Notes under the pieces: generated by a model
The model's database searches: none
Told to the model about the DNA's origin: nothing
Seen by the model: only the letters and a program-made list of their open reading frames with translations
Part shown: positions 12,921-40,698 of the stretch, one piece after another
Numbering within the stretch: position 1 is the stretch's first letter
Layout of the letters: each line of letters begins with the position of its first letter
Origin: a virus
Direction: 5' to 3' (one strand)
IMG/VR virus record: IMGVR_UViG_3300042691_014522
Location: 1-48,902 of that record
Length of the DNA stretch: 48,902 bases
Program-made: the position numbers and the translations under genes

Positions 12921-12925
12921 ATACT

Positions 12926-13585: not shown

Positions 13586-13589
13586 GTTT

Positions 13590-14369: not shown

Positions 14370-14399
14370 ATGTGTATTTTATTTATATTTAAATATTAT

Positions 14400-15356: not shown

Positions 15357-15357
15357 A

Positions 15358-16326: not shown

Positions 16327-17168
16327 AGACTATTTTTATAATGATTAACAAGTTTAACTATTATGTCTTCTATATTATGATTACATTCAAAACCATATGA
16401 CCTTAGTTTAGTTATATCTAAATAAGAATCTTTAACTTGAACCACATCATGGAAATGTGGTGGTTGTATGATATTAATCTTGGATGTTGATTGAGATATA
16501 TCTTTAGTTGATAAGATAATATCTCTAAGTACTGTTCTTTTTCCACTTCCTATATTAATAACTTCATTGACAGGTGCATTATTCATACAATGCATTATAG
16601 CATTGCAAACATCATCGACATAGATATAATCTCTGACAGCGTTACCTCCATCATACAAGAAAATTTCTTCATTTTGAGATAGGCACTTGATCATATGTTG
16701 TAAGGCATTCTTCTTTCTTGATATCTTTTTGTCGCCTTCACCTAAAACATTAGCTAATCTAAATATCCTATACTTAACTCCAAATGTTTCACAAAAGCTT
16801 ATTAGTAGTTGTTCTGCTGCTCTCTTAGTTATAGAATAAAATCCTGTGGGATTACATACAGAATATTTTTCATTAAATGGTAGTATATCATTCTTACCAT
16901 ATACGAACCAAGAACTAACAAAATTAAATATTAAATCTTTATCTTCTCTATTTATATTTTCAAGTACAGACATTAACACATTAAGATTAGTATTAATATC
17001 TAGATGAAGATCTTTATGAATATTGTAATTATCAACAGTGCTTATAAAGTAAAGTATCTGGTTTGTCTTAGGACTGTAGTCCTCTCTATTTTGAATTAGT
17101 ACTTTGTCATTATATATTTCACAAAACCTACTTCCTATAAAACCTGATCCTCCAAAAATTGTTATCAC
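16323..17168 (-). CDS. NAD-dependent sugar epimerase/dehydratase
   Basis: 281 residues, extended SDR. GGSGFIGSRF (7-16) binds NAD, NFVSSWFVYG provides the catalytic Ser, and GFYSITKRAAEQ the YxxxK pair. DYIYVDDVCNAI and VINIGSGKRTVL are the usual C-terminal substrate segments. Likely a UDP/GDP-sugar epimerase or 4-reductase. The upstream gene is 5 bases away. Confidence 0.8.
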   Translation of the reverse strand: MITIFGGSGFIGSRFCEIYNDKVLIQNREDYSPKTNQILYFISTVDNYNIHKDLHLDINTNLNVLMSVLENINREDKDLIFNFVSSWFVYGKNDILPFNEKYSVCNPTGFYSITKRAAEQLLISFCETFGVKYRIFRLANVLGEGDKKISRKKNALQHMIKCLSQNEEIFLYDGGNAVRDYIYVDDVCNAIMHCMNNAPVNEVINIGSGKRTVLRDIILSTKDISQSTSKINIIQPPHFHDVVQVKDSYLDITKLRSYGFECNHNIEDIIVKLVNHYKNSL

Positions 17169-17173
17169 GAAAA

Positions 17174-17779
17174 CTATTTTTTACTGTTAGCAAAATACGG
17201 GGTGTTTAGATAATCCTCATTTATTTTTATATTCGTATCATATATAAATATCCAACACCTTTCCATAAAATAAGGAATAAACCAGTCATCTTCCCAAATC
17301 ATTACATTTAATAAGTCATCCCAAAAATGTTTAGGTTTAGATAATATATTTTCTTTAGGTACAGAATACTGTGCTCCGCAAGGAAAGTTAACTCCTGGAA
17401 ATTTAAAGTCTAATATATTTTCTATAAAGAATCCAGTGCCTTCACCTGGTGCTATATAAATAGTTTGATCAGCTAAAGGAAAAAATCCATTTAAGTATCC
17501 TTTATTATTTATAAACTCTATCATTTTACTATAATGGTCAAAAGGATTAGCTTGTATAAAAATAGTATAGTCTGATAAAGAATCGTAGTTATTTGATATA
17601 TAATATAAAAAAGAATGATCACAAACCCCTATATTTTTTGTGGTATAAACTGTAGCTCTTGAATGACTGGTAATGTCTCCCTTATTTACAATTACTATAT
17701 TGACTTCATCATTACTTATATTATCTAACCAAGAAAGATCTTCTTTATAAGCTGCTATGACTAAGGTTACTTTACTCAT
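17174..17779 (-). CDS. DUF3431-like protein, glycan-cluster associated
   Basis: 201 residues. VIAAYKEDLSWLDN, then HSFLYYISNNYDSLSDYTIF and IQANPFDHY match the pattern of DUF3431 proteins, small putative glycosyltransferases found in polysaccharide clusters (the usual form is ...DYTIFLQGDPFDH). A 4-base overlap links it to the large GT downstream. Probably a GT or a glycan-modifying enzyme; no activity is known to me. Confidence 0.6.
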   Translation of the reverse strand: MSKVTLVIAAYKEDLSWLDNISNDEVNIVIVNKGDITSHSRATVYTTKNIGVCDHSFLYYISNNYDSLSDYTIFIQANPFDHYSKMIEFINNKGYLNGFFPLADQTIYIAPGEGTGFFIENILDFKFPGVNFPCGAQYSVPKENILSKPKHFWDDLLNVMIWEDDWFIPYFMERCWIFIYDTNIKINEDYLNTPYFANSKK

Positions 17780-19338
17780 TTCATATATTTTTGTGATAAT
17801 TTAATTTTTTCATCTTCTACTTTTTTTAAATTAGTTCTACTAACAGTATTCTCATGATCTAAATAGATACATAATACCTCAGGTATTAATTTAAACTTAG
17901 CATTAGCAACAACTACAAATCGTATCCACATTTCCCAGTCTCCTATTGTATTGAAGTTCTCATAATCAAAGTATCCTACTTTATCATGTAATTGTTTCTT
18001 CCACATAGGATCAGGTCCTGCCATACAAGCATGTAGAACTATATTATGGTAGTCATCAGGATATGGAATATAACCATTTTTTAACCAATTTTCACTGTAA
18101 AAATTTATAGTATCATCACTAACTCCTGTATAATAATTGTAAGCTAAATCTATATTATTTTTACTTAATAAGTCATATTTTATTTTAGTATTTATAGGAT
18201 GCCTAATATCATCAATATTCCAATTAGTTACATAATCTGTTGAGGCATTCTTTATACCTATATTCCATGCATTATAAACTCCTAAACGCCGATCTTCTTT
18301 TACTAATATAAAATTAGAATACTTTTTAAAGTTATCAAAGAACTCATGCCATTCTGAATATACTATGACGTGTTCTGTTTGTAAGAACATATGTTGATCC
18401 AAGACGTTCTCTAAATATCTTTGAAAGTATTTTGAATATACTCCATTCTTCCCAATAGCAGTAATTACAGATACTTTATATGGGTTTGAATCTTTACTAT
18501 TTAAATTAACTATATCTAATCCCCAATCTCCTAAATTAGGAATATCATATGCTTGTACATTTTCTTTTATGTAGTTTAATCTATAGTTATTTTCCATAAG
18601 ATCCTTTTCAAAAACATATGGAGATATTCTTAGAGGAAAAAAAATATATTCTTCTTCCCAATTAAAATTATTTACTGATGCATCATACGCTTCACTACCT
18701 ACAGTATCTATTCCATATTTAATCTTATTAACATAGTCATAAACTTTCCAATAGTATTGCTTTATAGCAACATAGTTTTTATTTAACCATTGTAAATGTG
18801 CAATAAAAAATGTTTCAGGATTTACTGCTACATCTATTTCTGTTTGTGGTAGATGCTGAGAGTGGTTTTGGCTTTTAATATACTCTTTCCTATTTTGATA
18901 TACTCCTATTCTTTCTTTATAGTTATTATCCCAAGGTCCATCAATTCTAATAGTATTACAAGAAGTATATTGGTTCCACTTAAGATGAAAGCGAGTATTA
19001 GGATTTTTATCTAATAACTCTTCTAGATCTTTTTTACTTCCTATTCCATCTATATATTCATCTGCATCTAAACAGATTATTTTATTTGTATATTTTAATG
19101 CAGAGTCAAAGAGTCTTTGTCTTATATCTGTTTCTATTGTTAGTTCATTTTCAAATTGTGTATTCTCTAGTACTTCTAAAATATTATACTCAGAGCTAAC
19201 AGATTTTAAATAAGACTTTGTCTGGTCTGTATTCGTGTCTAGCATGAATATAAACCCATCAACATATTTTTTCCATATAGGAAGTAGTTGTTTTATTAAA
19301 GGCAACTCATTCCTTACCATTGATATTTGAACAATCAT
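17776..19338 (-). CDS. Two-domain family 2 glycosyltransferase
   Basis: 520 residues from the ATG at 19336-19338, which follows the upstream TAA by two bases. The N-terminal domain (about 1-250) has VQISMVRNELPLIKQLLP and IICLDADEYIDG with a DAD metal site, as in LPS core GT92/GT2 enzymes. The C-terminal domain (about 285-520) is a second GT2 module: VITAIGKNGVYSKYFQRYL, LGVYNAWNIGI, then NWNIDDIRHP (metal site) and NTIGDWEMWIRF. The two fused catalytic domains may add successive sugars. Confidence 0.75.
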   Translation of the reverse strand: MIVQISMVRNELPLIKQLLPIWKKYVDGFIFMLDTNTDQTKSYLKSVSSEYNILEVLENTQFENELTIETDIRQRLFDSALKYTNKIICLDADEYIDGIGSKKDLEELLDKNPNTRFHLKWNQYTSCNTIRIDGPWDNNYKERIGVYQNRKEYIKSQNHSQHLPQTEIDVAVNPETFFIAHLQWLNKNYVAIKQYYWKVYDYVNKIKYGIDTVGSEAYDASVNNFNWEEEYIFFPLRISPYVFEKDLMENNYRLNYIKENVQAYDIPNLGDWGLDIVNLNSKDSNPYKVSVITAIGKNGVYSKYFQRYLENVLDQHMFLQTEHVIVYSEWHEFFDNFKKYSNFILVKEDRRLGVYNAWNIGIKNASTDYVTNWNIDDIRHPINTKIKYDLLSKNNIDLAYNYYTGVSDDTINFYSENWLKNGYIPYPDDYHNIVLHACMAGPDPMWKKQLHDKVGYFDYENFNTIGDWEMWIRFVVVANAKFKLIPEVLCIYLDHENTVSRTNLKKVEDEKIKLSQKYMK

Positions 19339-19340
19339 TT

Positions 19341-20015
19341 TTATATTTTTGGTAACCAATGATCCATATAGAAACCTTCAAATTGATTCTTTAATTTATA
19401 AAGAGTATCATCTCTAAATCTATTTACTACTTCATAACCCATACTAAAAAGATCAGATTCAAAGCTTTCTAAAGTTGTACCAGTTTCATATGTACCAAAC
19501 TCACAAGTTTCTGCAAATATAAAATATGGTCTATAGTTTCCTAATCCTTTAATTACATTATGTTCTCCTCCTTGAACATCCATATGTAGGTAGTCTATAT
19601 TGTTTATTTTATTTAGTTCACAAAAAGTATCTAATCTAACAACTTGAACTTCATATCCTTCCATATTATAAAGTAGGCCATCATGATTTATACCTTCAGT
19701 TGTGCCAGATCTTACAATAGGTTTTAATGTAGATCCTGATCCATTGTGAGTGGGACTATTATAAAAAGTCATAACATCATCTTTATTAGATACTGCTACA
19801 GGTACTACCCACACTCCTTCTACATCAGCGGTATATTGATATGCTGTTAAATTATCTCTACTAGGTTCAAAGCTATATACTGATGCATATGGGAAATGTC
19901 TTTTTAGTTGTATACTATCCATAAAATTACAACCTCCAACATCAAATATTACCAAGTCTTTTTTATCTCCTATAGTTTTTTGTATAACTTTTATTTCATT
20001 ATGTATTTCACTCAT
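19341..20015 (-). CDS. FkbM-family methyltransferase
   Basis: 224 residues. VIFDVGGCNFMDS is the SAM-binding motif, VYSFEPSRDNL the second, and IDYLHMDVQGGEHNVIKGL the FkbM hallmark (DVxGGE...). FkbM enzymes O-methylate sugars and polyketides. It belongs with the glycan genes around it (17776 and 20033 flank it within 18 bases). Confidence 0.85.
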   Translation of the reverse strand: MSEIHNEIKVIQKTIGDKKDLVIFDVGGCNFMDSIQLKRHFPYASVYSFEPSRDNLTAYQYTADVEGVWVVPVAVSNKDDVMTFYNSPTHNGSGSTLKPIVRSGTTEGINHDGLLYNMEGYEVQVVRLDTFCELNKINNIDYLHMDVQGGEHNVIKGLGNYRPYFIFAETCEFGTYETGTTLESFESDLFSMGYEVVNRFRDDTLYKLKNQFEGFYMDHWLPKI

Positions 20016-20032
20016 GTTATATTGATTTAATA

Positions 20033-20686
20033 TTATTCTATGGAATATGGAGGATATAGTGTACGTTCTTGATAAGTTATATTTGGGTACATTTTATATA
20101 AATTTATAATATTATTTTCTGCTAAGTAACTAATCATGCAATCTCCTGTACATCCAATCTCATTAAATTTTAATAGGCTATCTAATACTTTATAATAACT
20201 ACTTTTATTAATTGCTACACAATGACATCCTGATATTTCTGACTTTTCTGTTTTGAGTTTAATAAAATTGATTGAGATATTTTTATGTTTCGCAACTCTT
20301 TCCATATCTCCTAATATTAGTATATCCCAATCTTTAGGTAGATGTTCTTTTATTAAAGAGATCTTTACATTTTCAAATATCGTATCATCATCACATGTAA
20401 CATAAGAATCATATCTTTTTCTCATGGCATCTAAATGTATAGACAACCACGTAAAATGATTACCTGCTAAATATTGATTTGCTGGAGTTGGATAAAGCTC
20501 TGGCCTGAATTTTATAACATAGTCTTCTGGAAAGTATATATCTCCTCTTACTGCTGTATATATTTCATATTCTAATTCTATATTAGCTGCTGAATTTATA
20601 AATGATTCTCTTCTTTTATTAGCTTCTAATATATTCTTTAGATACACATGATCAAAAGTAGAATTTATATTTTTACCTAAAGTCAT
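20033..20686 (-). CDS. Glycosyltransferase family 25-like (LPS type)
   Basis: 217 residues. FDHVYLKNILEANKRRESF at about residues 11-29 is the opening of GT25 enzymes (LPS galactosyltransferases and collagen-type GLT25), and CDDDTIFENVKIS (about 98-110) provides the acidic metal site, followed by PKDWDILILGDM. It should add a hexose to an LPS- or capsule-like acceptor. It overlaps the upstream gene by 14 bases. Confidence 0.75.
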   Translation of the reverse strand: MTLGKNINSTFDHVYLKNILEANKRRESFINSAANIELEYEIYTAVRGDIYFPEDYVIKFRPELYPTPANQYLAGNHFTWLSIHLDAMRKRYDSYVTCDDDTIFENVKISLIKEHLPKDWDILILGDMERVAKHKNISINFIKLKTEKSEISGCHCVAINKSSYYKVLDSLLKFNEIGCTGDCMISYLAENNIINLYKMYPNITYQERTLYPPYSIE

Positions 20687-21665
20687 ATAAAATTTTATTC
20701 ATCCTATCTTTCCAATCTTCTATTGAGTAGTACAGCTCATAATTTTTTCTTGCTTGATATGAACAGTCCTCATAAAAATCTTTATCTTCTTTCAATCTCT
20801 TTGCTAATTGAACTGCATATTGAATATCATTTACGTCTACTGATAGATTAGAATGACAAAGCTTCTGAGTATCTACTTCTCTGTTTCCTATACAAGGTAT
20901 ACCAAAGTACGCACAGTTTAAACTAAAGGTACCTGCTGCTATAGTAGGCATGAGATGAACTGCATATTTAAAACTAGATAATGCTTTCATCCAATCTATC
21001 CATATCAATCTTGGTAGATGTTTTATCCCATCTACTAACTCTTCACCAGGTCTTTTAGCATGAGATTCTTGTGCCCATATCTCTGTACCAAAATTGTCAG
21101 CTACTATATAGCTTTCAAAACCACCATACCATCTTGCAAAGTTACCACCTATTATAGTTTTATTTTCTTTAATAGGTTGTATATCTTTTATAAGATCTTC
21201 TATCATTAAAGTATGGATTGCATTAACAGGTTTTCCTGGAAACAATCCTTTGTAATAAACTACATCATGTTCATTGTGAGCAAATATAGAATCACATTGA
21301 GATATAAAATTATAAAAATGTATTTGATCATGGATCTCATAATCGTTATATAACCAATGTGGACCTTCTTGAATATAGTGAATCTTTTTATTAGATTCTT
21401 TTAATTTATCTACTAAAGGATATCTTAATATATCTGATACTGGGTTTTGTTTATCTATTAATTTTGAACCAACAGCATTTAAATATACTTCTCCTTTAGG
21501 GAATATAATAAATACGTGGTCATAATTAAATACTCTGTCTATAGCTCTTATATTGTAGTGATCCGCATCTAAAGCATTCATCCATGCAAACTCAGTTCTA
21601 GCATTTGGATGGTTAGATAGTACCTTACCTTCAAATCCCATTTCAGTAAGAAAAGCTATTCTCAT
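20673..21665 (-). CDS. GT-B type glycosyltransferase, probable GT4
   Basis: 330 residues. No DxD site; the fold pattern is GT-B, with IGGNFARWYGG and HLMPTIAAGTFSLNCAYFGIPCIGNREVD (the donor-binding region where GT4 enzymes keep E(x7)E-like residues). The C-terminus KDFYEDCSYQARKNYELYYSIEDW matches the closing helices of GT4. The sugar is unknown. It overlaps the next gene by 4 bases. Confidence 0.7.
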   Translation of the reverse strand: MRIAFLTEMGFEGKVLSNHPNARTEFAWMNALDADHYNIRAIDRVFNYDHVFIIFPKGEVYLNAVGSKLIDKQNPVSDILRYPLVDKLKESNKKIHYIQEGPHWLYNDYEIHDQIHFYNFISQCDSIFAHNEHDVVYYKGLFPGKPVNAIHTLMIEDLIKDIQPIKENKTIIGGNFARWYGGFESYIVADNFGTEIWAQESHAKRPGEELVDGIKHLPRLIWIDWMKALSSFKYAVHLMPTIAAGTFSLNCAYFGIPCIGNREVDTQKLCHSNLSVDVNDIQYAVQLAKRLKEDKDFYEDCSYQARKNYELYYSIEDWKDRMNKILYDFR

Positions 21666-22975
21666 AGTTGATTTATAAATTGATCAAGAATCATTTCAAT
21701 ATAGTCTGTCTTCTCTTTATTAATTACTGGAGATGTGCCTAAAAAGAAAGTATCAGTAGTAACTTTCCTAGCAATAGGAAACTTCTCAATCACTTCTTTA
21801 GGATCCATTAGTCCTTCATATGCTGGTTGTAGCATAATATTGCCTGCAAAGTATGGTCTTGTTTGTACTTTATTTGCTTCAAAGAATTGACAGATGTCAG
21901 ACCTTTTAAATGGCGCATCATCTTTAACTGTTATAGGAAACGCAAACCAATCAACATCTGCACCAGGTTGTGCTTCATGTAAATGGAAGTGCTGTTCATA
22001 CTTTTTAAATGCACTAAATAGGTTCTTATAGTTCTCTCTACGCTTTTGTCCAATCTCTTCTAACTTCTCCATCTGTACCAATCCCATTGATGCCTGAAGC
22101 TCAATAGGTTTAAAATTATAGCCTATCTCTTCATAGACATATTTATGGTCGAACAAATCATTTGGTAACGATGGTAGCCATGTATTGAATCTACAACCGC
22201 AAGATCCTTTCTCTAATAGGTTTTGTTTACCAATACAATAACAACCGCGACCCCATTCTCTAAAGCTACGAATAATCCTTTCAGTGTTCTCATCTTTACA
22301 TGCAACAAATCCACCTTCAGCCATAGTAATGTGGTGAGCTGGATAAAATGAACAACTTGCTAATTCACCAAAGGATCCTAAAGGTTTACCTTCATAGAAT
22401 GATCCTAGTGCGTCACAGCAGTCTTCTAATAAGATTAGTTTGTACTTTTCAATAATCTTCATCAACTTATTCATATCAGGAGGATTACCAAGTACGTGCG
22501 CAAATGTAATGATCTTTGCATCAGGATTATCTATACAAGCCTGTTCTACTTGATCAAGATCAAGGTTCAATGTTTGTAGTTCAATATCAACAAACACAGG
22601 AGTAAACCCTACTTGTAGAATAGGATTGATTGTAGTAGGAAAACCTGCAATAGGTGTAATTACTTTTGTACCTTTAGGCAAGTTTAATCCACGTTTAGAA
22701 GTTAATGCTAACATCATAAGTAAGTTAGCACTGGATCCTGAGTTGGCTAATAGACCATACTCTTTACCAAACTTCTTTGGGAACTTAGTTTCAAACTTAT
22801 TAGCATCAGCACCTAATACTAACCACTCACTTAATAAGCTTTTAATAGCTGCTACATATTCTTTAGAATCAAAATAAGGTCCTGCATATTGAACCCAATC
22901 TTCACCTGCTTTCCAGGTTTTTTCTGCATGCTTTTCATTAATGTACTTCTCTACTAACTCTAGTATTTCTTTCAT
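21662..22975 (-). CDS. rfbH: RfbH-like CDP-4-keto-6-deoxyglucose-3-dehydrase
   Basis: 437 residues, the standard length of RfbH/AscC (E1). These enzymes are DegT-fold proteins that bind PMP and a [2Fe-2S] cluster. SFYPAHHITMAEGGF shows the diagnostic His in place of the PLP-anchoring Lys of aminotransferases, and GRGCYC...GSCGCRF supplies the four Cys of the cluster. It removes the C3 hydroxyl on the way to 3,6-dideoxyhexoses. A dedicated reductase (AscD/E3) is not in the window. The DNA is somewhat less AT-rich than adjacent genes, a possible sign of separate acquisition. Confidence 0.85.
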   Translation of the reverse strand: MKEILELVEKYINEKHAEKTWKAGEDWVQYAGPYFDSKEYVAAIKSLLSEWLVLGADANKFETKFPKKFGKEYGLLANSGSSANLLMMLALTSKRGLNLPKGTKVITPIAGFPTTINPILQVGFTPVFVDIELQTLNLDLDQVEQACIDNPDAKIITFAHVLGNPPDMNKLMKIIEKYKLILLEDCCDALGSFYEGKPLGSFGELASCSFYPAHHITMAEGGFVACKDENTERIIRSFREWGRGCYCIGKQNLLEKGSCGCRFNTWLPSLPNDLFDHKYVYEEIGYNFKPIELQASMGLVQMEKLEEIGQKRRENYKNLFSAFKKYEQHFHLHEAQPGADVDWFAFPITVKDDAPFKRSDICQFFEANKVQTRPYFAGNIMLQPAYEGLMDPKEVIEKFPIARKVTTDTFFLGTSPVINKEKTDYIEMILDQFINQL

Positions 22976-22977
22976 AA

Positions 22978-23598
22978 CTATATTGTATTATAAAACTGGT
23001 TTTGTCTTTCTTGTCTAGCTATATCTTTTGGATGAAATAAACAATACTCTTCCATTTGTGGTAAAGCAGAAAACTCTTTAAACCCCTCTAATCTTTCATG
23101 CACTTTATTTATCCAATGAACACCCACTTTATTTTTCCACACCCTCCATTGATAATCAGGAAAATTAACCCAACCTTTATCATTCACATTCCATCCCCAT
23201 TGCTTAATATGTTCATTAGTTAATCCTGTAACAGTATTAATCCTAGGTACTAAAAGTACTTCAACATTTTGATTATATGAAAAGATTTTAGGTAGTGACT
23301 CAATTAAATATGGATGTGGATATTCATCTGCATCTATTTGAAAGATGTAGTCTTTAAGGCACTCTTTACTTAGATTATTCTTAAATGTACCAAAGTCATT
23401 ATTCAAAGGAAACTCAATGACTCTAAGATTAGGTCTACCAAAATCAAAACAAACAGATCTAACTTCAGCAGTTGCTGTTTTATCTAATTGAATAACTATT
23501 TCATCTTCTGGTCTTATAGACTCTGTAAGAATTTCTAATAGTCTATCTAATTCAACATGTTCATTACATGCTGTAATTGCATAACTAATTGTTGGCAT
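22978..23598 (-). CDS. Family 2 glycosyltransferase, short
   Basis: 206 residues. ISYAITACNEHVELDRLLEIL opens a GT2 fold, YIFQIDADEYPHPYLIE has the DxD-like DAD metal site, and GVHWINKVHERLEGF gives the acceptor-side segment seen in LPS inner-core GT2 enzymes. It is shorter than usual (about 250-300) but the core motifs are complete. Confidence 0.75.
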   Translation of the reverse strand: MPTISYAITACNEHVELDRLLEILTESIRPEDEIVIQLDKTATAEVRSVCFDFGRPNLRVIEFPLNNDFGTFKNNLSKECLKDYIFQIDADEYPHPYLIESLPKIFSYNQNVEVLLVPRINTVTGLTNEHIKQWGWNVNDKGWVNFPDYQWRVWKNKVGVHWINKVHERLEGFKEFSALPQMEEYCLFHPKDIARQERQNQFYNTI

Positions 23599-23602
23599 AA
23601 CA

Positions 23603-24055
23603 TTAATTTAATTGTATATCAAAAAAAGATATATAATCACAGGCAGCAAAATAGTCTGTACCAAAATTTTGTAAGGTCTTTGAATCTGATTTAAATAATT
23701 TTCCTTTAAACTTAGGACTTTCTTTTTCTTCTTCTGTTAGAAGTACAGACTTAATTGCACTCCATTGCCAATTATCTTTTGATGATCCATTAGCAAACAC
23801 TGTTCCTTTACCTTCTAAATTAATAATATGTGGATACCACACTCTACCATCAGAATCTGTATACTTAATTTCTTTATATAGTTCAGGCATTTCACTTTCA
23901 TATTCCTCAAAGTTAAACTCACTTTCACGCATCAAATCATTTGTTTGAAAACCGCAGTTAAAACAAACATAAGATTTATGAAACTCATTAAGAGGTAATA
24001 CATAGCAAGACTCTGCTACTCCACATTTTGGGCATGTTATTAAATTATCAGTCAT
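23603..24055 (-). CDS. Zinc-ribbon protein
   Basis: 150 residues from the ATG at 24053-24055 (MTDNLITCPKCGVAESCYV), which overlaps the stop of the upstream gene by 8 bases. CPKCG and CFNCG (about residues 8-12 and 30-34) form a four-Cys zinc ribbon. The rest is soluble, acidic, with DSDGRVWYPHIINLEGKG and a C-terminal YISFFDIQL. It may be a transcription or recruitment factor. It separates the last large GT genes from the rest of the glycan cluster. Confidence 0.65.
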   Translation of the reverse strand: MTDNLITCPKCGVAESCYVLPLNEFHKSYVCFNCGFQTNDLMRESEFNFEEYESEMPELYKEIKYTDSDGRVWYPHIINLEGKGTVFANGSSKDNWQWSAIKSVLLTEEEKESPKFKGKLFKSDSKTLQNFGTDYFAACDYISFFDIQLN

Positions 24056-24404
24056 TGAGTTGTTGTTTTTTATTTTTACATTCTGCCGTACTGTTCGTAT
24101 AATATCCAAATCCTTCAGGATAATTGGTACAATACCAACATCCCATTTTATCATTCCACACTGAATTCGCACCCGTACCATTGGGCGCAAATGATATATT
24201 TATTGATCCTGTTAAGGGAGTTTTATATTCATGAGAAGGTAAATACCAATCATCGATTTCTTCATCTATACCAGGATTATCATTATAGTCTTGTACATTT
24301 TCTAAGACTTCTTTTATTTTGTCCCATTGTTTAGGTGTAGCAGTAAAGTCATTACACGCCGCCATAAACCCTTTCATCCACACAACAAATTCTGCGCTAG
24401 TCAT
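24048..24404 (-). CDS. Unknown phage protein of the EFVVWMKGF type
   Basis: 118 residues. The N-terminal 35 residues (EFVVWMKGFMAACNDFTATP, then KQWDKIKEVLENV) match the pattern of a small family widespread in phages of diverse hosts, of unknown function. The C-terminal half is Asn/Gly-rich. Its presence here supports a phage origin for the region. Confidence 0.6.
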   Translation of the reverse strand: MTSAEFVVWMKGFMAACNDFTATPKQWDKIKEVLENVQDYNDNPGIDEEIDDWYLPSHEYKTPLTGSINISFAPNGTGANSVWNDKMGCWYCTNYPEGFGYYTNSTAECKNKKQQLND

Positions 24405-24476
24405 TTTATTTATTTTTACAATTTTTAAAGTGATATCTAGTCATAAAATATTCCAAACATAAAAAAAATAGAATTA

Positions 24477-25781
24477 TTATTTAACCTTTTTTAAAGAAGG
24501 CAATTCTATCTTCTTGAGTTGCGGAAGTTGTACTTGTACTTGTTTAGGAACTTTATCTAAATATAGACCAAGAAGTTTTTTCATTTCATCAAAACAGAAA
24601 TTAGTTTTACTTAAATGAGATTGTCTTTTAGCTAACTCTTGATACTTGTTATACTTCTCATAAACATTTTCTAATGTCTGCTTAACTTGTGATATGTCAG
24701 GACTAAACCATTGAGACTCTGCAAGTATAATATTTTGCACTGCTGCTGATGGATGAACATTTTTTAATTCCCCACCAACAAAGCACGTATATTCTTTATC
24801 TAAGAAGTCTACTAATCCTGACCATGCGGATACAATTATTGGCTTTTTGCTTAATGTAAACTCTAATAAAGGTCTTCCGTATCCTTCACCTTTAGTAAGG
24901 TTATACATAGCTTTTACTTTAGGGTGGTTGTATAAATTATTTATATCACTATCATCTAACTCCCCATGTAAAAGATAAACATTAGGAAGGTCTCCAGTTA
25001 CTGTTGATCTAACTGCATCAATTCGTTTAAGAATATCTTCACGATCCATAATTGAAGATCCAGCACCGGATGTTTTCATAATTAATGCTGGTTTATTCTT
25101 TTTATCTTTAAATGTCTCAAAGAAAGTCTTTAACATTAATCCTACATTCTTTCTATCTTCACCTAATTCTCCTTGTAACCAATGTCCTACAAATAAGAAG
25201 CAAAATTCTTCTTTTATTTCATCTAGCTCAAGAACTAATTCAGTCTCTTCTAAATCCTCATTCTCAATATGAAAATATTTATTCAGATCTACACCCTCAA
25301 ATAAAACTTCTAGCGGTTTTTCAAGCTTAATAACTCCTTGAGAATTATTTTGTTGATCTCTCTTTTCAAAAGCTGAGGTTTTAAATACTTGTTTAGCATG
25401 ATTTGAAGATACTAAAGTTAAATTCATTCTATTTATACCCTCAATCCAACTAGGATCACAAAGAGTTGTTTCAATACCTGCTGTAAGTCCTATACTATAT
25501 TTACCTATTGGTTGAAATTCATTGGGTACTGTTATTTGAATCCAAATTTCAGGTTGTCTTGGTAACTGATTTGAATTATGAAGAAGCGGAAGTAGCCATC
25601 CCCATTCTTTTTTATTATCATTGATATATCCCCAAGGAGTAACTCCCCATCTTTGAGGAATAACTTTAATATCCCATTCATCTTTCTTTAATTCATAAAG
25701 TGCTTTTACAAAGTCTCTAGCTCTCGCACCATAACCTGAATATGTGTCAATTGGACATGATATAACGCAAAACTGTTTCAT
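24477..25781 (-). CDS. Family 4 glycosyltransferase
   Basis: 434 residues, GT-B fold. The N-terminal CPIDTYSGYGARARDFVKAL and the C-terminal donor domain with FLFVGHWLQ...RKNVGLMLKTF, then LTKGEGYGRPLLEFTLSKKP (the E(x7)E region of GT4) are clear. The C-terminus is unusually rich in Lys/Leu/Gln repeats (KQVQVQLPQLKKIELPSLKKVK-like tail), maybe a membrane or partner-binding tail. The region 24405-24476 upstream of its stop holds no gene. Confidence 0.8.
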   Translation of the reverse strand: MKQFCVISCPIDTYSGYGARARDFVKALYELKKDEWDIKVIPQRWGVTPWGYINDNKKEWGWLLPLLHNSNQLPRQPEIWIQITVPNEFQPIGKYSIGLTAGIETTLCDPSWIEGINRMNLTLVSSNHAKQVFKTSAFEKRDQQNNSQGVIKLEKPLEVLFEGVDLNKYFHIENEDLEETELVLELDEIKEEFCFLFVGHWLQGELGEDRKNVGLMLKTFFETFKDKKNKPALIMKTSGAGSSIMDREDILKRIDAVRSTVTGDLPNVYLLHGELDDSDINNLYNHPKVKAMYNLTKGEGYGRPLLEFTLSKKPIIVSAWSGLVDFLDKEYTCFVGGELKNVHPSAAVQNIILAESQWFSPDISQVKQTLENVYEKYNKYQELAKRQSHLSKTNFCFDEMKKLLGLYLDKVPKQVQVQLPQLKKIELPSLKKVK

Positions 25782-25782
25782 A

Positions 25783-27225
25783 TTAATATACTAATGGGTG
25801 TACAATTTTATTTCTTTTTAATTTCTCTGTTTTAAGTAATTCAAAATTAGATCTAGGTTTGAAATTATTAATGGTATCATCTATTGTAGAAACAACATTC
25901 TTACACATATTAACAGCGCTCATCATTGATTCATCAGATGTTACCCATTCACGACCTTTTAATCCTCTTCTAAATCTTTCTTCTTGTGGTAATTCATATA
26001 TCTTCTGTATTGCATCAGCTACGTCTCTAAAATCACAGCGATCATCAAAGATATAAGGAGTTGGAATAGATCCTACAATACTCATATTATTAGGGAATAC
26101 ACCAATACCCCATTCACCATGCTTTCTATATGTTCCAAAATGATTAGAACAAAACTTATCATTAAAGTCAATCCACTTACCATCTTTATCCTCGAATCTT
26201 AATTGATCTTGCATGCCTCCTGTAACATTAGCTATGACCATCGTACCTGCCATCATAGACTCAGTTAATGATAATCCCCAACCTTCATTAGAAGATATTA
26301 AGCAAGTTACATCTGCTATATTGTATAGCATATTCATATGATCTGTTGTTAACTTTGCATCTGAGAAGAATACCTTTTGATATTCTGGATCGCAAAGCAG
26401 ATCTCTTACTACAGGAAGATCGGTACCATTCTCATCTAATGGTTGGGTATGGAGTAATAAGGCACATTTGCTAGCTTTCTCTTTACCTATTTTATCACAA
26501 AATACAGAATACGCTGCAATCAAGTCTGATGTTGATTTACGTCTAATATTTCTTGCATTATAGAATACAACAAATTCAGGATCAAAATCTCCAAAGAGCT
26601 CTTGTTTCTTTTTAACTATATTGTTATTCTGCTCTTGCATGAAATCTGTAATAGGAAAGAACTCTTTCTCATTAATGCCATGAGGAATATATTTTAAGAT
26701 CTTATTCTTAGCTTTATCTCCAAGTACCATTCTATTGATATTCAAAGTTTGTTTAGAGATAGCCATCAATGAATCACAAGACTCATAATAAGATTTATTA
26801 TATAAAGGAGCTGGAAGGTCATCCCATATATTTAAATAGATCATAGGAATCTTTCTTCTGATCTCATTCTCCATTTGAAATAACCATATCCAATATCTAG
26901 GATCAGTAAAGAACATGATTGCATCAGGCTTTTCTAATTCTAATAATTGCCTAACAATTTCAGGAGATCCATATCCATTAATAGGGTAAATAAAAATAGA
27001 TGAATCACTAATACCTTTAATGTTATTGGTATCTTGTGAAACATCTAACTTTCTACCTTGTTCTGGATGATTAATAGCTCCTCCTAAATTAACCCAATTA
27101 AATCTATGGGCTGTACCGATTACGATCTCTCTAGCCATTGTAGAGATACCGCTTGTCATTCTAATATCATCACACATAAGAAGTATCTTTTTCCTCTGTG
27201 CTTGGGGTATATAACCATTTGCCAT
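25783..27225 (-). CDS. Family 4 glycosyltransferase
   Basis: 480 residues, GT-B fold. ILLMCDDIRMTSGISTMARE at the N-terminus binds acceptor. FVVFYNARNIRRKSTSDLI, then SSNEGWGLSLTESMMAGT (E(x7)E-type) form the donor site, followed by RGLKGREWV. It is the promoter-proximal gene of the glycan cluster, with an RHH regulator just upstream (27233-27451). Confidence 0.8.
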   Translation of the reverse strand: MANGYIPQAQRKKILLMCDDIRMTSGISTMAREIVIGTAHRFNWVNLGGAINHPEQGRKLDVSQDTNNIKGISDSSIFIYPINGYGSPEIVRQLLELEKPDAIMFFTDPRYWIWLFQMENEIRRKIPMIYLNIWDDLPAPLYNKSYYESCDSLMAISKQTLNINRMVLGDKAKNKILKYIPHGINEKEFFPITDFMQEQNNNIVKKKQELFGDFDPEFVVFYNARNIRRKSTSDLIAAYSVFCDKIGKEKASKCALLLHTQPLDENGTDLPVVRDLLCDPEYQKVFFSDAKLTTDHMNMLYNIADVTCLISSNEGWGLSLTESMMAGTMVIANVTGGMQDQLRFEDKDGKWIDFNDKFCSNHFGTYRKHGEWGIGVFPNNMSIVGSIPTPYIFDDRCDFRDVADAIQKIYELPQEERFRRGLKGREWVTSDESMMSAVNMCKNVVSTIDDTINNFKPRSNFELLKTEKLKRNKIVHPLVY

Positions 27226-30379: not shown

Positions 30380-30460
30380 TGATACCATTATTATAAGTAT
30401 CTATTTTTTGTGCCTCAGACGGGAATCGAACCCGTACTCGCTTTCAGCAAACAAGATTTT

Positions 30461-31148
30461 CTTACTACTATAGCTTTCGCTACCTTTTCAGTTTGTAGTC
30501 TGGACTATACCTTCACCTTATTCTAAACTTAGGTGTTCCGTGTCTAGTCTCTACACCTTCCCTTTCGGGCTTGGCTCGGTATTACCATTTTAAAGGCTTC
30601 ACCGAATTTACGGAATTCTACATCAAACGTTTCCATTTGAGCACTCAATTTTTCTATTCTTTGATCTATAGGTATCAGTTTGTGCATGACAATTAGGACA
30701 TAGCATTCTTAAATTTTCTATCCTATGATTTGTTCTATTTCCATCAATATGATCTAATTCCATATTTAAAGGTTTTTCCATCCATTCTGAAATGCCACAT
30801 TCTGAACACACATTTTTTAAAATTCCAGCTTTAACTAACCTGTTTTTTAATTTATATGTTTGAAATTGTGGATAATTACCAGAAGTGATATCATCTAGAT
30901 TAATCCTAGGTTTGCCTTTTTTAATCATTCCTTTACCGCTTGGATTTGTTTTATAACAATCAAACAATAAAGCGTATTTTTTAAAGGTATTAAAATGAAG
31001 TCCTAATGTCACACTAGCTTGTGCCATACTTATGCTATTATTACAAACTTCTATAAACTTCTCTCTATTTATATCTTTTCTCATACTAATAAATATCAGA
31101 CAAGATAGAAAAAAGTTATATAGTGCCTATCATTTCAAAGAACTAACT
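30461..31148 (-). other. Group I intron encoding an HNH homing endonuclease
   Basis: A 688-base intron. Near the 3' end it has the conserved core: GGTAATACCGAGCCAAGCCC and a CCCGAAAGGG P5-like GAAA hairpin, the P7 pair (GAGACTAGACACGG ... GGTATAGTCC; S motif at 30502-30511 on the plus strand), and a P9 hairpin TAGCGAAAGCTA. It ends in a G (30461), as expected for the omega-G. The endonuclease reading frame (30623-31084) lies 5' of the core, between the 5' splice region and P3. I could not draw P1 with confidence; the 5' intron start AGTTAGTTCTTTG does not show a clean guide sequence. Confidence 0.8.
30623..31084 (-). CDS. HNH homing endonuclease, group I intron encoded
   Basis: 153 residues. 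VCSECGISEWM (about 92-102), then LNMELDHIDGNRTNHRIENL (about 106-125) and RMLCPNCHAQ give an intact HNH active site (DH, N, H) with its structural four-Cys zinc site. The N-terminal part (MRKDINREKFIEVCNNSISM...ASVTLGLHFNTFKKY) has a helix-turn-helix that would read the homing site. Expected to cut intronless tRNA-Leu genes so that the intron copies itself. The start is 5 bases from a GATATTTATT box (31089-31097). Confidence 0.85.
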   Translation of the reverse strand: MRKDINREKFIEVCNNSISMAQASVTLGLHFNTFKKYALLFDCYKTNPSGKGMIKKGKPRINLDDITSGNYPQFQTYKLKNRLVKAGILKNVCSECGISEWMEKPLNMELDHIDGNRTNHRIENLRMLCPNCHAQTDTYRSKNRKIECSNGNV

Positions 31149-31183
31149 AAGTCTTGCGTGTCTACCAATTCCACCACCGAGGC

Positions 31184-31303
31184 TGGTTGGGACTCTCCCC
31201 ATAGTCACTTGCTGAGATCATTACCGGCGGTCGCACTGTACATAACCTAGACAAGTTGTACAGATTCTCCATTTGAGGCTCTCTTTAAGTTACTTTCCCC
31301 TCG
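31184..31303 (-). other. Noncoding spacer with a stable hairpin
   Basis: No gene in these 120 bases between the tRNA-Leu 5' end and the tRNA-like element at 31304. Read on the minus strand it contains CTGTACA...TGTACAG, a 7-bp hairpin with a 14-base loop, and a GACT...AGTC stem. It probably belongs to the same transcribed RNA locus as its neighbours. Confidence 0.4.
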
Positions 31304-31404
31304 TAGTCAGAATAGGATTCGAACCTATAACGTGGACTCGTAAAGAGTAGCATTCCATTTTGCCTTACCGAGCTTGAGCCCGCTTACATATCCACTACCT
31401 GACT
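31304..31404 (-). ncRNA. tRNA-like element with enlarged central domain (101 nt)
   Basis: The T arm ATAGG-TTCGAAT-CCTAT is canonical and the acceptor pairs AGTCAGG (31398-31404) with TCTGACT (31305-31311, one G-U), followed by A. T8-A9 is also present. Between them lie 63 bases that do not fold as D arm plus anticodon arm: instead GTGGA/TCCAC, GTAAG/CTTTAC and CGGGC-TCAA-GCTCG stems appear. No seven-base anticodon loop with U33 is visible. It could be a decayed or intron-remnant tRNA, or a tRNA-like RNA. Confidence 0.5.
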
Positions 31405-31935
31405 ATAGAGTGGGCCTTTCCCCACGGTCAGAAGAACTTGAAACTTACCTACGCACCAGTGAGGTATTCTTCGTGGTTGTTCACAGAGCTTGTTCAGAGT
31501 GCACCATTCCAAGTTGTCGTGCGTGTCAATACTTGTCTTTCCAAGCTGTCAACGAGACCCGCACCTCATACTCGGCCGACGTCTGACCGTTTAAAGCGTT
31601 TTAGGAAAGTAGAAGATGGGTGCGTGGACATCTACTTTTATGATTGGCGTTTCTAACCTGGTTTCCAATCAACCTAAGTGCAACCCTATTCCCCAGTGGG
31701 GTTGCTTTACACTGCTGACTAACGATTCAGAGGACATTTGTGCATTGTTAAGAGGCATTCCTGAGTTTTCGATCCCGTGGCCTTAGGGCTAATTATTTGA
31801 GAGAGGAGTAGTAATTAATTCCTCCAATGTTTCTACTAATCCGCTCAGAGTTAATCGATATGACTGCTACGGAACTTTCGTCTACATCTCTCAAAAGAGA
31901 CTCACTGTGTTCAGAAGTTTAGTTACCGTCCTTTA
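31405..31935 (-). ncRNA. Candidate large structured RNA
   Basis: About 530 bases with no leftward gene and many inverted repeats: 31410-31414/31421-31425 (GTGGG/CCCAC), 31425-31432/31582-31589 (CGGTCAGA/TCTGACCG), 31606-31613/31631-31638 (AAAGTAGA/TCTACTTT), 31641-31647/31665-31671 (TGATTGG/CCAATCA), 31680-31686/31699-31705 (GCAACCC/GGGTTGC) and 31796-31804/31887-31895 (TTTGAGAGA/TCTCTCAAA). Higher GC than the rest of the genome. Its place between tRNAs in a phage resembles GOLLD and ROOL RNAs, but I cannot align it to either. Two short rightward frames in it have no support. Confidence 0.5.
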
Positions 31936-31943
31936 ACTATTTT

Positions 31944-36233: not shown

Positions 36234-36682
36234 TGGTGGAGATGGCGAGGGTTCGAACCTCGCGTCTCCGAAAGTGACAATAACACCAACGTCTCACATG
36301 CTTAGTACTAACTGTTCGTTCTATGATAGCCAAAGAGCAGTTCATAGACTGGTACGATAGTTTGCACCGTAGTTGAGGCCAACCGAAGGTTCGGGGTCCA
36401 CCACCTTGTTTTAATCGACTACAAGGAAAACTACGGCTCGCAATATGCGTCCGGATGTCGTCTCTGTGGCGTACGACTCGCCGTTGTGTTCTGTTCCTAG
36501 GCTCTCTACCGCCCGATGCGGACTAGGCTGCAAGAGCGTAGTCGGCGCCTACGAACGCCATAAGGTCGTCGAAGGTCATAGTTGACATTTCGTCAGTTAT
36601 TGTTTAGTATCTTCTAAGGCAGTATACTCAAATGCCTGCATGTGGTATTACCTCATCGTTCGGATCAATACCGGTCATCCCC
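36234..36682 (-). ncRNA. ssrA: tmRNA (ssrA)
   Basis: A 449-base one-piece tmRNA. The acceptor GGGGATG (5') pairs with CATCTCC (3', one G-U), followed by encoded ACCA. The T arm GCGAGG-TTCGAAC-CCTCGC is canonical. The reading frame ends ...GADYALAA with a TAG stop (36523-36525), in frame from an ATG at 36577-36579 (18 codons). The ending -YALAA matches bacterial proteolysis tags (Flavobacterial tags end NYALAA). The exact resume codon is not clear. The host's tagging and ribosome rescue would be supplemented or altered. Confidence 0.9.
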
Positions 36683-37246: not shown

Positions 37247-38449
37247 TTATTGGCCTTTTATAGGAAACCTAGTCCAACCGTTGATCCAGGTTGGTTTTGA
37301 TAAAGCTTCCATTTCATTCTTAGTATAACTTACTTCTTTATTTCCTTGTGATAAAGCTTTAGTTTTCATGTCTAAAGCTGATATTACTGCTGAAGTAGAT
37401 CTGAAATTTTGTAATGGATCATAAGATTGCACTTCATTATTTTCAAACTTACTTATTCCATCTTTATATGCTTGAGCAGTTTCATTTGACTCCATACTAA
37501 AACCACCTTTCATATAGCCTAATATCTTAGAGTTAGTTATAGTGAATTGTGCGGCTCTCCTCCACCTCAAACCTAAATTATGATTAGTTAATGAGCTAAC
37601 ATCAAAAGGACCTACCAGAACCATCCCAATGAGTTTAGGATGCGTAAATGGTTGCGCTGATGATCCTGTACCATCATTGTCACATTCTACACCATTACCT
37701 GCATCACCATTATCTACAAATTGTGGATCACGTTTTGATACTCCATTTGTTACAGTTCCTGTATATCCAAAGTCAAAATCATAATCATCATCTGCTGTTG
37801 CAAACGCATATAGGTTTTTAGGAGATACAGTTCCACCAAAGAACTCAAATGCATCATCGTTAGCATATACTGTTTGAACGTATTCAATTATAGTACCTGA
37901 ACCTACTGCGCCTAATGTTAAACCATTAATCTCTGAGTTAGGAAGTGCAGCAATGCCTGCATATTCTATTCTAACATATTTCAATACTCCACTATTATCG
38001 GCATCATTTGTACCGCCATAAGGACGGCCTATACCGCCCTCAATAGTTGGTTCAGAACTTCTATTAGTCTTTGCTCTACCTAAAATTACAATACCGCCCC
38101 AATCGCCAGGAGATCTTTCACCTGCAGGTTTACCTGAAGTAAACACAATTGGTTTTGTAGCAGTGCCTTCAGCGATTATTTGAGCCCCTCTTTCTATACA
38201 TAATGCACCTTTCTCTGCTACGTCACTTACGATAGTAGTTCCAGGTTGAATAATTAATTTAGCACCATCTGTTACGTATACATAACCTTTTAAAGTCCAA
38301 ACTTTATCTGATGTTAATGTGGTTGTTGCATTGATGTTACCTGATAATGTAGTAGTCGAAGGTACATTGATTGGTCCATCGTCTCCACCTAAATCTTTTG
38401 TGCAACTAAATAAACCAACTAAAATTAATACACTTAATAGCTTTTTCAT
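37247..38449 (-). CDS. Beta-helix lipoprotein, partner of the TonB receptor
   Basis: 400 residues. The signal peptide ends in SCTKDL (lipobox Cys about 16). The mature part is a right-handed beta-helix-type protein (LIIQPGTTIVSDVAEKGALC, WGGIVILGRAKTNRS, YAGIAALPNSEINGLTLGAV), matching Bacteroidetes lipoproteins often mislabelled as multidrug transporters and usually found beside TonB-dependent receptors. Its start overlaps the receptor stop by 4 bases (ATGA), a tight operon. Probably a surface substrate-capture partner of the receptor. Confidence 0.75.
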   Translation of the reverse strand: MKKLLSVLILVGLFSCTKDLGGDDGPINVPSTTTLSGNINATTTLTSDKVWTLKGYVYVTDGAKLIIQPGTTIVSDVAEKGALCIERGAQIIAEGTATKPIVFTSGKPAGERSPGDWGGIVILGRAKTNRSSEPTIEGGIGRPYGGTNDADNSGVLKYVRIEYAGIAALPNSEINGLTLGAVGSGTIIEYVQTVYANDDAFEFFGGTVSPKNLYAFATADDDYDFDFGYTGTVTNGVSKRDPQFVDNGDAGNGVECDNDGTGSSAQPFTHPKLIGMVLVGPFDVSSLTNHNLGLRWRRAAQFTITNSKILGYMKGGFSMESNETAQAYKDGISKFENNEVQSYDPLQNFRSTSAVISALDMKTKALSQGNKEVSYTKNEMEALSKPTWINGWTRFPIKGQ

Positions 38450-40698
38450 AAATTTAAATTAATAGTTAATGATATTGTTTGTTCATTATTTGTTTTGATC
38501 AAGTCGCCTCTATTTTTCTGATAGTATTTAGAGGGTTGTGCTAATATATCTGATATGGCTAACTTAATTTCTCCTTTCTTTATCTTTCTTAAGTACACTA
38601 CATCTACTACATCTCTTGAGTTTTCAAATATGTCAGAGTAACCTTGGAAACCTACTGCAGATATTCTATCTCCTACTCTATTATAAGTTACATTGATAGT
38701 ATTAGACTTCTTATGTAAGTTTAATCCACCATTGATAATGTAATTAGATTGACCTTGCAATTGTCTTTTAGATCCGTTTACATTAACTTCTGATGTCATG
38801 ATTGATGTATTAGCATAGAAGTCTAACCACTCTGATATCTTCTTTCTTACTTCTATTTCTATACCATATAAAGACGCTTTATCTGGATTTGTGTAGGTTA
38901 GTAATAAGTTTGATGGAACTGAACCGTCTGCTACTATTTGCTCTATTGGTTTTACGAATTGTTTTCCAAATACTCCAATAGAAACTGTTTCACCAGTCTT
39001 TGGATAATATTCCCATTTAAAATCTATATTGTATATATCTGACTTTTCTAGTTTTGAGTTGCCTAATAGTTGAGCGTTTCTAACAAAATCGTAGTACGCA
39101 AAATTAGCAACTTCTCTAAACTCAGGCCTTGCCAATGTTTTACTTATAGAAAATCTCTTCTTTATTCTATCTACTGTTTTAGATACATTTAATGATGGAA
39201 GGAAGTCTAAGTACTTTCTATCTACGTTTACTTTTTGTCCACTAAAGTCTGCTGTATTAACATTGAATAAATTATACTCTGCTCTTAATCCAGTATTTAG
39301 TTTCCAGTCTCCAAACTCTTTATCATACATAACATAAGTAGAAGATAAATCAAAGTTTGCTTTATATCTATCTGTGTTATTTGTTATTTCATTCATTAAG
39401 TCTATAGCTTCATATCTGAATATTCTTGCTTGGAATTGCCTTAGCTTTTTTAAATAGCTACTACCAACTTTAATGCTTCCAAAATCCTTATTGATTCCTG
39501 CATTATAACTATTTTCATTCATTATGCTCCAGAATCTGTATGTATCTCTCCAAGCGGTAGAATAGTTTTGATTAGATCCTAAAGACTTTGTGATAGGATT
39601 AACTCTATAATCAGGTTGGTCTCTTAACATTAAGTTGTATCCTAAATTAAAATCAATCGTTTTTACTTTTGCATCAAATTGAGAGTTTACTACAGTTTTA
39701 ACTATTTTATTGCTAGATGTACTTTTTACATCTTGTACGTTATCATAGTTTTCACCAAACCTAGTAAGATAAGATTGTTCTATTTGATGATTAAATAAAG
39801 TCTTAAGACTATACTTATACTTTCCTATGTAGGTAATATTCAATAGACCATTTAAAGACTCTGTTGTAGTATATAAAGTGTCTTTATATTTATATGCAAG
39901 TTCTGTAGATGATTGATAATCTAATCTATCGATATAGTTTAAAGAGTAGGATTTTCTTCCTGTAGAGCTGAACAATACATTCCACTTGTTTTTTTTAATG
40001 CCGAATGAAATTGCACCATTATAATTAGGCATAGAAGTAAAAGATCTAGGATCATAGGAGTTCATTAGCTTTGTGTAAGCTCTTCTATCTCCTAAACTAC
40101 CTATACGAAATTTATAAGTAGAAGGGAAAGTGGAAGGGAATTTAGCATCTTGTACTAACTTGAAGCCTTTCAAAGTTGACACTAAACCCCAACCACTCCC
40201 TAATGATATGTTTAGAAAATTACCTGATACATCTTTAGTAGTTATTTGTACTAGACCTCCAGAAAAATCACCAGGTAAATTAGCAGCAGATGATTTCGCA
40301 ACTATAATATTGTCTATTAAACTAGAAGGAATAATATCAAAAGAGAATGCACGTCTATCCGGTTCAGTTGAAGGTAAAATAGTTTTATTTAACATAGCAG
40401 AGTTATATCTATCTGCTAAACCTCTAACTAAGACGAACCTATCGTTTTGAATAGTAACACCATTAACTCTTTTAAGGGCATCGCCTACTGTTCTATCAGG
40501 AGTCTTTTTTAAGTACTCAATAGATATGCCATCAGAGACTACTGAATTATTTTTTACGAGATTGATTACTGAAAGGTTACTTTCTTTCTTAGCTACAGAT
40601 TTTACTGTAATTTCGCTGAGTCTTTGGTTGAATAGAGTGTCTTGAGAGAATAAAGAAAGGGGAAGTAACGAAACAAAAATAAGAAACGGCTTGATCAT
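38446..40698 (-). CDS. TonB-dependent outer-membrane receptor
   Basis: 750 residues. The signal peptide ends at FSQ (about 19). LSEITVKSV (about 27-35) resembles a TonB box. A plug domain follows (EYLKKTPDRTVGDALKRVNG, RFVLVRGLADRYNSAMLN, SFDIIPSSLIDNIIVAKSSA, FSGGLVQITTK), then a long beta-barrel ending in alternating hydrophobics (LTINLNL). It lacks the about 85-residue carboxypeptidase-like domain common in Bacteroidetes SusC-type receptors, so it is a plain TBDR. Its role in a phage could be nutrient uptake, receptor masking or superinfection exclusion (inference). Confidence 0.85.
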   Translation of the reverse strand: MIKPFLIFVSLLPLSLFSQDTLFNQRLSEITVKSVAKKESNLSVINLVKNNSVVSDGISIEYLKKTPDRTVGDALKRVNGVTIQNDRFVLVRGLADRYNSAMLNKTILPSTEPDRRAFSFDIIPSSLIDNIIVAKSSAANLPGDFSGGLVQITTKDVSGNFLNISLGSGWGLVSTLKGFKLVQDAKFPSTFPSTYKFRIGSLGDRRAYTKLMNSYDPRSFTSMPNYNGAISFGIKKNKWNVLFSSTGRKSYSLNYIDRLDYQSSTELAYKYKDTLYTTTESLNGLLNITYIGKYKYSLKTLFNHQIEQSYLTRFGENYDNVQDVKSTSSNKIVKTVVNSQFDAKVKTIDFNLGYNLMLRDQPDYRVNPITKSLGSNQNYSTAWRDTYRFWSIMNENSYNAGINKDFGSIKVGSSYLKKLRQFQARIFRYEAIDLMNEITNNTDRYKANFDLSSTYVMYDKEFGDWKLNTGLRAEYNLFNVNTADFSGQKVNVDRKYLDFLPSLNVSKTVDRIKKRFSISKTLARPEFREVANFAYYDFVRNAQLLGNSKLEKSDIYNIDFKWEYYPKTGETVSIGVFGKQFVKPIEQIVADGSVPSNLLLTYTNPDKASLYGIEIEVRKKISEWLDFYANTSIMTSEVNVNGSKRQLQGQSNYIINGGLNLHKKSNTINVTYNRVGDRISAVGFQGYSDIFENSRDVVDVVYLRKIKKGEIKLAISDILAQPSKYYQKNRGDLIKTNNEQTISLTINLNL

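Follow-up and report, generated by a model that had tools for sequence, protein, structure and literature searches.

The window, by which we mean the whole 48,902-nt stretch of viral DNA analyzed here (IMG/VR record IMGVR_UViG_3300042691_014522), carries on its minus strand (31183–30411) a tRNA-Leu(UAA) gene with a 688-nt group I intron between U34 and A35. An HNH endonuclease gene fills the P1 loop of this intron. We propose, with a probability of roughly 0.8, that the whole is a composite mobile intron, formed by collaborative homing when an ORF-less tRNA intron received in its P1 loop an HNH cassette that targets tRNA-Leu.

Structure of the Split tRNA-Leu(UAA) Gene

With introns allowed, ARAGORN reports tRNA-Leu(taa) at c[30410,31183] and places an intron of 688 nt between gactt and aaaat; without the intron option, the tRNA-Leu(UAA) gene is not called in the window. 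The 35-nt 5′ exon (31149–31183, minus strand) ends in CUU, of which the last base is U34. The intron (30461–31148, minus strand) starts AGUUA and closes with a terminal G at 30461, and the 3′ exon (30411–30460, minus strand) runs from A35 to A73, the CCA not being encoded. The joined exons form an 85-nt tRNA-Leu with the loop CUUAAAA, a long variable arm, and A73. A sequence-only reading had described two halves of one tRNA-Leu(UAA), split at U34/A35 by an HNH-encoding group I intron with a terminal G, and ARAGORN, RF00028, and the Pfam HNH matches bear this description out.

The intron has a ribozyme core that we take to be IC3-like. A genome search with RF00028 gives a match at c30480–30663 that covers the full model (1–253; 62.2 bits, E 4.1e-17) and lies above the cut-off, in agreement with the core recognized earlier by eye. 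The intron was not detected by cmscan against Rfam, with either gathering or E-value thresholds, presumably owing to the ORF and to the filters of that program. Helices P3, P4, P6, P7, and P8 are all present in the match and either covary or are invariant. In the window, all 47 pairs of our hand-drawn core (P2 to P9, with P7 as a pseudoknot) are standard pairs. Across 23 related introns, the window included, 95.8% of 1,077 base-pair cells are paired, and 27 of the 47 pairs have changed on both sides (197 cells, compared with 67 in shuffles). When partners are slid by 1–3 columns, pairing is only 30%–40%. The ribozyme signal is far above chance.

The P2 hairpin (30623–30640, minus strand; UCAAAUG-GAAA-CGUUUGA), in which 7/7 pairs covary, holds the HNH stop codon in its 3′ strand. 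The 5′ strand of P3 (30610–30615, minus strand) pairs with 30541–30536; here 6/6 pairs covary and 99.3% of cells are paired. P7 (30549–30545 with 30507–30503) encloses the 3′ strand of P3 and P8 (30503–30549, minus strand, for the whole), with P7 invariant and P8 covarying. In the covariation alignment, the P9 domain (30464–30499, minus strand), with its GAAA-capped inner hairpin, stands right before the terminal G. Of the GAAA hairpins assigned earlier to P5 and P9, the P9 assignment holds; the other GAAA tetraloops cap P2 and P6a instead of P5.

The HNH ORF Occupies the P1 Loop

The intron contains an intact ORF for an HNH homing endonuclease of 153 aa (30623–31084, minus strand), as the sequence-only reading had stated. 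Pfam matches are to HNH_3 (8.8e-7) and HNH (5e-5), and the H/N/H residues and two CxxC pairs are conserved. Foldseek with an AlphaFold model of the protein (pLDDT 84) returned no confident match, the best being the McrA restriction enzyme (E 0.02), and a sequence search of the PDB gave weak hits only.

The ORF lies not just anywhere within the intron, as the earlier description left it: it takes up the P1 loop and extends into the guide sequence and P2. ORF-less phage introns at the tRNA-Leu(UAA) site start ..nnAATTTGAGTGC..GGAAAC.., in which GAG pairs with exon CUU to give the U·G pair at the 5′ splice site, and P2 follows. In the window, this guide motif stands at the end of the HNH ORF, 500 nt from the splice site, so the ORF must fill the P1 loop, which is 501 nt long; the loop is peripheral and the core is undisturbed. 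The 5′ strand of P1 (31145–31152, minus strand; ACUU/AGUU) combines exon and first intron bases, with the U34·G wobble at the splice site, and is supported by cofolding and by the guide motif kept in ORF-less relatives. Its 3′ strand, identified by motif and cofold, is the internal guide sequence AAUUGAGU (30643–30650, minus strand), within the HNH ORF. Cofolding predicts, for this one sequence, an 8-bp P1 that includes U34·G, plus a further 9 + 5 bp closing the loop. Part of this may be a P1 extension, GUUCUUUGA...AUAGG (31125–31143, minus strand), which has an 8-nt perfect complement at the ORF end just 5′ of the guide. In L027, L032, L033, L038, L045, and L052, too, the guide motif UUGAGUGC..GGAAAC lies where the HNH ORF ends, and the P1 loops measure 500–568 nt. 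A loop of 501 nt could slow the choice of the 5′ splice site.

The guide sequence and P2 supply the last eight codons of the ORF (IECSNGNV) and its stop. A ribosome reaching the stop must therefore unfold P1 and P2, and translation of the HNH to its stop should exclude, or delay, splicing of the same transcript. In the phage tRNA-Leu intron of L260 (3001–4000), the HNH ORF extends across the guide sequence, P2, and the core into an insert after the P7 5′ strand; the same bases serve the ribozyme core and the protein. We also considered T4-like translational control by a hairpin over the HNH start codon. The signal is too weak to claim: 3 of 300 shuffles were as low in the window, 19–50 in other intron-borne genes, and such a hairpin also occurs in some free-standing ones.

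A Cassette Shared with Free-Standing HNH Genes

A protein-only search with the window HNH identified 28 loci. Two of these, L260 and L268, are intron-borne and are not counted among the 18 distinct free-standing loci; apart from them, the 28 loci show no GAGACT core next to the HNH gene. Most free-standing HNH genes adjoin an intact, intronless tRNA-Leu(UAA). The nearest tRNA is Leu(UAA) in 13 of the 18 loci, mostly 4–106 nt away, where 4.7 would be expected if a random tRNA of the same locus were picked (0 of 300,000 draws as high). In the other five, the nearest tRNA is a different one, and the range of targets may therefore extend beyond Leu(UAA). The HNH genes lie on either side of tRNA-Leu, one of them on the opposite strand, and therefore do not represent one inherited arrangement. 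Separately, the HNH ORFs of L268 and L264 have in-frame stops where relatives have W, which suggests that in these phages a stop codon is decoded as an amino acid.

The homology extends to the DNA level. The window cassette, comprising a leader and the ORF to residue 145 (30649–31135, minus strand), matches the free-standing cassette of L243 with 73.6% identity over 488 nt (blastn), and at residue 145 the homology of the ORF to its free-standing relatives stops. This match runs from nt 49 to 535 of the gene; the guide UUGAG begins at 536–537, one base beyond. The leader before the start codon is common to both cassettes (0 of 1,000 shuffles as high). In the HNH tree, the window protein is placed among free-standing HNHs (97/94), with L243 its nearest neighbor.

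The intron-borne HNHs are distributed over two well-separated clades. A single clade, and with it a single origin of these genes, is rejected by the tree test. Between the window and L032, the ribozymes share 85% identity, whereas the L032 HNH is in the other clade. The ribozyme and the endonuclease therefore have separate histories, which implies more than one capture into the same loop; similar introns, to judge from these trees, appear to have taken up different HNHs at the same place.

The alternative that survives best, though we consider it unlikely, is that the intron and its HNH were inherited as one unit, the free-standing HNHs being escapees without a ribozyme and not the source. The unrooted tree leaves the direction unfixed, intron-borne HNHs occur in both clades, and a cassette could leave as well as enter. 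However, the free-standing cassettes carry no remnants of the guide sequence or P2 and stop where the guide begins, the clade of the window HNH consists mostly of free-standing rows, and very similar ribozymes with HNHs of different clades need at least one capture. A decaying insertion, in which an ORF in P1 destroyed splicing and left the tRNA a pseudogene, is very improbable. The 501-nt loop and the overlap of the ORF with P1 and P2 would suit it, but the tRNA exons pair fully, none of the 47 core pairs is broken, the ORF remains open, and at least six further phages share the architecture with P1 loops of similar length.

Distribution and Relationships of the Intron

The core sequence is common to bacterial tRNA introns, which are retrieved by the same core motif and can be aligned in one tree. 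Searching IMG/VR with a 16-base core word found at least 120 loci. Among the 120 matches listed, 81 belong to introns at the tRNA-Leu(UAA) site, approximately 14–17 are in other tRNA or tRNA-like contexts, and 21 are not in tRNAs. Phage tRNA-Leu(UAA) introns are not rare; many phages have one at this same tRNA site. The earlier description of an intron in a phage tRNA as unusual thus fits the published record that we searched but not these matches. Viral tRNA-Lys loci, sampled without regard to Leu, include ∼25 tRNA-Leu(UAA) genes, of which 1 has such an intron. The cultured Agrobacterium phage Atu_ph07 (MF403008; L275, 1253–1614) has an unannotated 278-nt intron in its tRNA-Leu(UAA), at about 112.9–113.3 kb of the genome record, overlapped by a CDS called hypothetical protein. 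An intron of this core is also found in the 735-kb phage LR756501 (205 nt), and Microcoleus phage OR578706 has a tRNA-Arg intron of 213 nt.

In bacteria, a similar core word retrieves chiefly tRNA-Leu(UAA) introns, from Pseudomonadota, Cyanobacteriota, and Bacteroidota among others. Homologous introns of the same core occupy this very site in Pseudomonadota, Bacteroidota, Acidobacteriota, Cyanobacteriota, and many phages, and independent convergence, one of two origins offered by the sequence-only reading, is not the simplest explanation. A quick tree places the window intron inside a cluster of phage introns, mostly HNH-bearing (88), a placement that the AU test does not reject (p-AU 0.17), and a more careful tree places it beside Bacteroidota introns (98/84). 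The host of the window phage is likely a member of the Bacteroidota, as suggested by a TonB-plug/outer-membrane β-barrel protein and an apparent tmRNA tag ending ADYALAA. Bacteroidota contigs L164 and L231 carry HNH introns of the same design; with a likely host in this phylum, exchange of the intron between phage and host is plausible. The second origin offered, acquisition from a cyanobacterium or cyanophage, is hardly credible: the gene, the U34/A35 insertion point (correctly noted as shared), and the core motifs are those of cyanobacterial tRNA-Leu introns, but these form their own group, which in the present sampling the window intron is rejected from joining (p-AU 0.00018), and it comes closest in sequence to phage introns (85% to L032) or to those of Bacteroidota, the phylum to which the TonB/outer-membrane gene also points.

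Empty Sites and Altered Anticodon Arms

For empty sites, our comparison set comprised 15 records that share the TPP enzyme of the window, mostly at 63%–69% identity; an RF00028 search of these phage relatives gave no intron match. One of them, G002, has an intronless tRNA-Leu(UAA) in which the exons abut exactly at the intron site (GCAAGACTT^AAAATCTTG); identity in the matched stretch is 91%. G002 itself is no close relative of the window phage (67% identity in one enzyme). Occupancy of the site is patchy: tRNA-Leu is intronless in G002 and G007, and the same intron type occurs in many unrelated phages.

The anticodon arm is altered in most phages that bear the free-standing HNH. Positions 30–40 of tRNA-Leu read GACTTAAAATC in 4 of 12–13 such loci, compared with 95 of 112 in one control (p 8e-5) and 21 of 24 in another (p 0.002). 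The first control is biased by its D-arm pattern; the second, drawn by a tRNA-Lys pattern, differs in the same direction. In several HNH-adjacent arms, the stem is still paired through a double change (CACTTAAAATG), as would be expected if the gene avoids its own enzyme yet keeps a working tRNA. These observations point indirectly to the anticodon arm of tRNA-Leu(UAA) as the probable target of the HNH. The 12–13 loci are few and related, and the result may partly reflect phage lineage. Immunity by recoding cannot be general, since the common arm persists in four loci.

Other Features of the Window

The ∼700 nt upstream of the tRNA gene (∼31190–31940, minus strand) contain no convincing ORF and resemble a structured noncoding RNA, with a T-arm-like GGTTCGAATCC and a 7-bp acceptor-like pair near 31304–31400 and a sub-threshold abiF-RNA match at 31731–31762; an Rfam search of this region found no family. 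A tmRNA gene missed by ARAGORN lies at 36234–36682 (minus strand; RF00023, 53.6 bits), and its apparent tag frame, ...DEMSTMTFDDLMAFVGADYALAA*, is unusually long. The tmRNA of G002 is 378 nt, with the tag GEEKSSFTFEDALAFVGADYAVAA.

A large sugar-biosynthesis block (6733–26000, minus strand) includes glycosyltransferases, epimerases, and a GDP-mannose dehydratase-like gene, together with TPP enzyme, 3-dehydroquinate-synthase-like, and aminotransferase genes; the TPP enzyme is found in 16 viral contigs. The TonB-plug/outer-membrane β-barrel protein (38446–40698, minus strand; 750 aa) is unusual phage cargo and suggests a Bacteroidota host. Two different genes (45042–46064 and 47905–48543, minus strand) have thymidylate synthase family matches.

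A Model for the Composite Intron

A free-standing HNH and an ORF-less intron both occur at tRNA-Leu(UAA), in different phages. We propose that an ORF-less intron at this site received in its P1 loop, by recombination, a free-standing cassette that already targeted tRNA-Leu(UAA). The guide of the IC3-like ribozyme would pair with exon CUU through U34·G, and self-splicing would join U34 to A35, yielding a normal tRNA-Leu(UAA). The HNH protein would be made from unspliced transcript, and a transcript under translation to the HNH stop could not splice simultaneously, the ORF running through the guide and P2. Co-infecting phages whose tRNA-Leu(UAA) gene lacks the intron would have that gene cut or nicked by the protein at the anticodon arm, and repair would copy the intron into it. 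Considered together, the data are compatible with a broader picture, which we advance tentatively and at slightly less than even odds: a phage HNH family aimed at the anticodon arm of tRNA-Leu(UAA) would have been captured repeatedly in the P1 loop, the ORF end in the guide and P2 would make translation and splicing mutually exclusive, and intronless phages would be protected by recoding of the arm.

Comparison with Known Systems

According to a 2014 review, all phage introns known at that time sit in protein genes (PMC3984707). The 2025 group I intron database lists viral introns as mostly IA2 and does not mention phage tRNAs (PMC11835236), and introns are not mentioned in the huge-phage paper (PMC7162821). 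No description of group I introns in phage tRNA genes emerged from our search of the open-licence PMC literature up to 2026, and one published elsewhere is possible. The relatives of the window intron hold every proposed stage in the birth of a mobile intron: the empty site, the free endonuclease beside it, the ORF-less intron, and the composite. With more than one capture among them, the collaborative-homing model becomes testable in a single 85-nt gene, and splicing could be tested in the cultured phage Atu_ph07.

Collaborative homing in phages, where a free-standing endonuclease and an ORF-less intron share one site, is described for the cyanophage psbA gene (PMC3984707). As there, a free-standing endonuclease and an intron are tied here to one conserved target; in contrast to psbA, the target is a tRNA gene, the composite end-product is present, and more than one HNH lineage has been captured in the same loop.

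The group IC3 intron of cyanobacterial and plastid tRNA-Leu(UAA) shares with the window intron its host gene, U34/A35 site, core motifs, splice-site U·G, and terminal G. The window intron differs in being phage-borne, in falling outside the cyanobacterial group, and in having an HNH ORF in its P1 loop; the cyanobacterial introns compared here are short (about 220–312 nt) and lack such an ORF. The Azoarcus tRNA-Ile intron has an IC3-like core and is inserted in the anticodon loop. The same is true of alphaproteobacterial tRNA-Arg(CCU) introns, but both interrupt a different tRNA at a different loop position.

Among homing endonucleases, SegB is a member of the GIY-YIG family. In T4-like phages, it is free-standing and linked to tRNA genes (PMC13096335). 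Like the window HNH, SegB is thus a homing endonuclease attached to phage tRNA genes, but it is not an HNH enzyme, stands free, adjoins other tRNAs, and is associated with no intron. The closest design is that of the Bacteroidota tRNA-Leu introns of L164 and L231, in which the HNH likewise lies in the P1 loop and takes its C terminus from the ribozyme. In contrast to the window intron, these are on bacterial contigs, their HNHs belong to the other clade, and some of the ORFs continue through the core.
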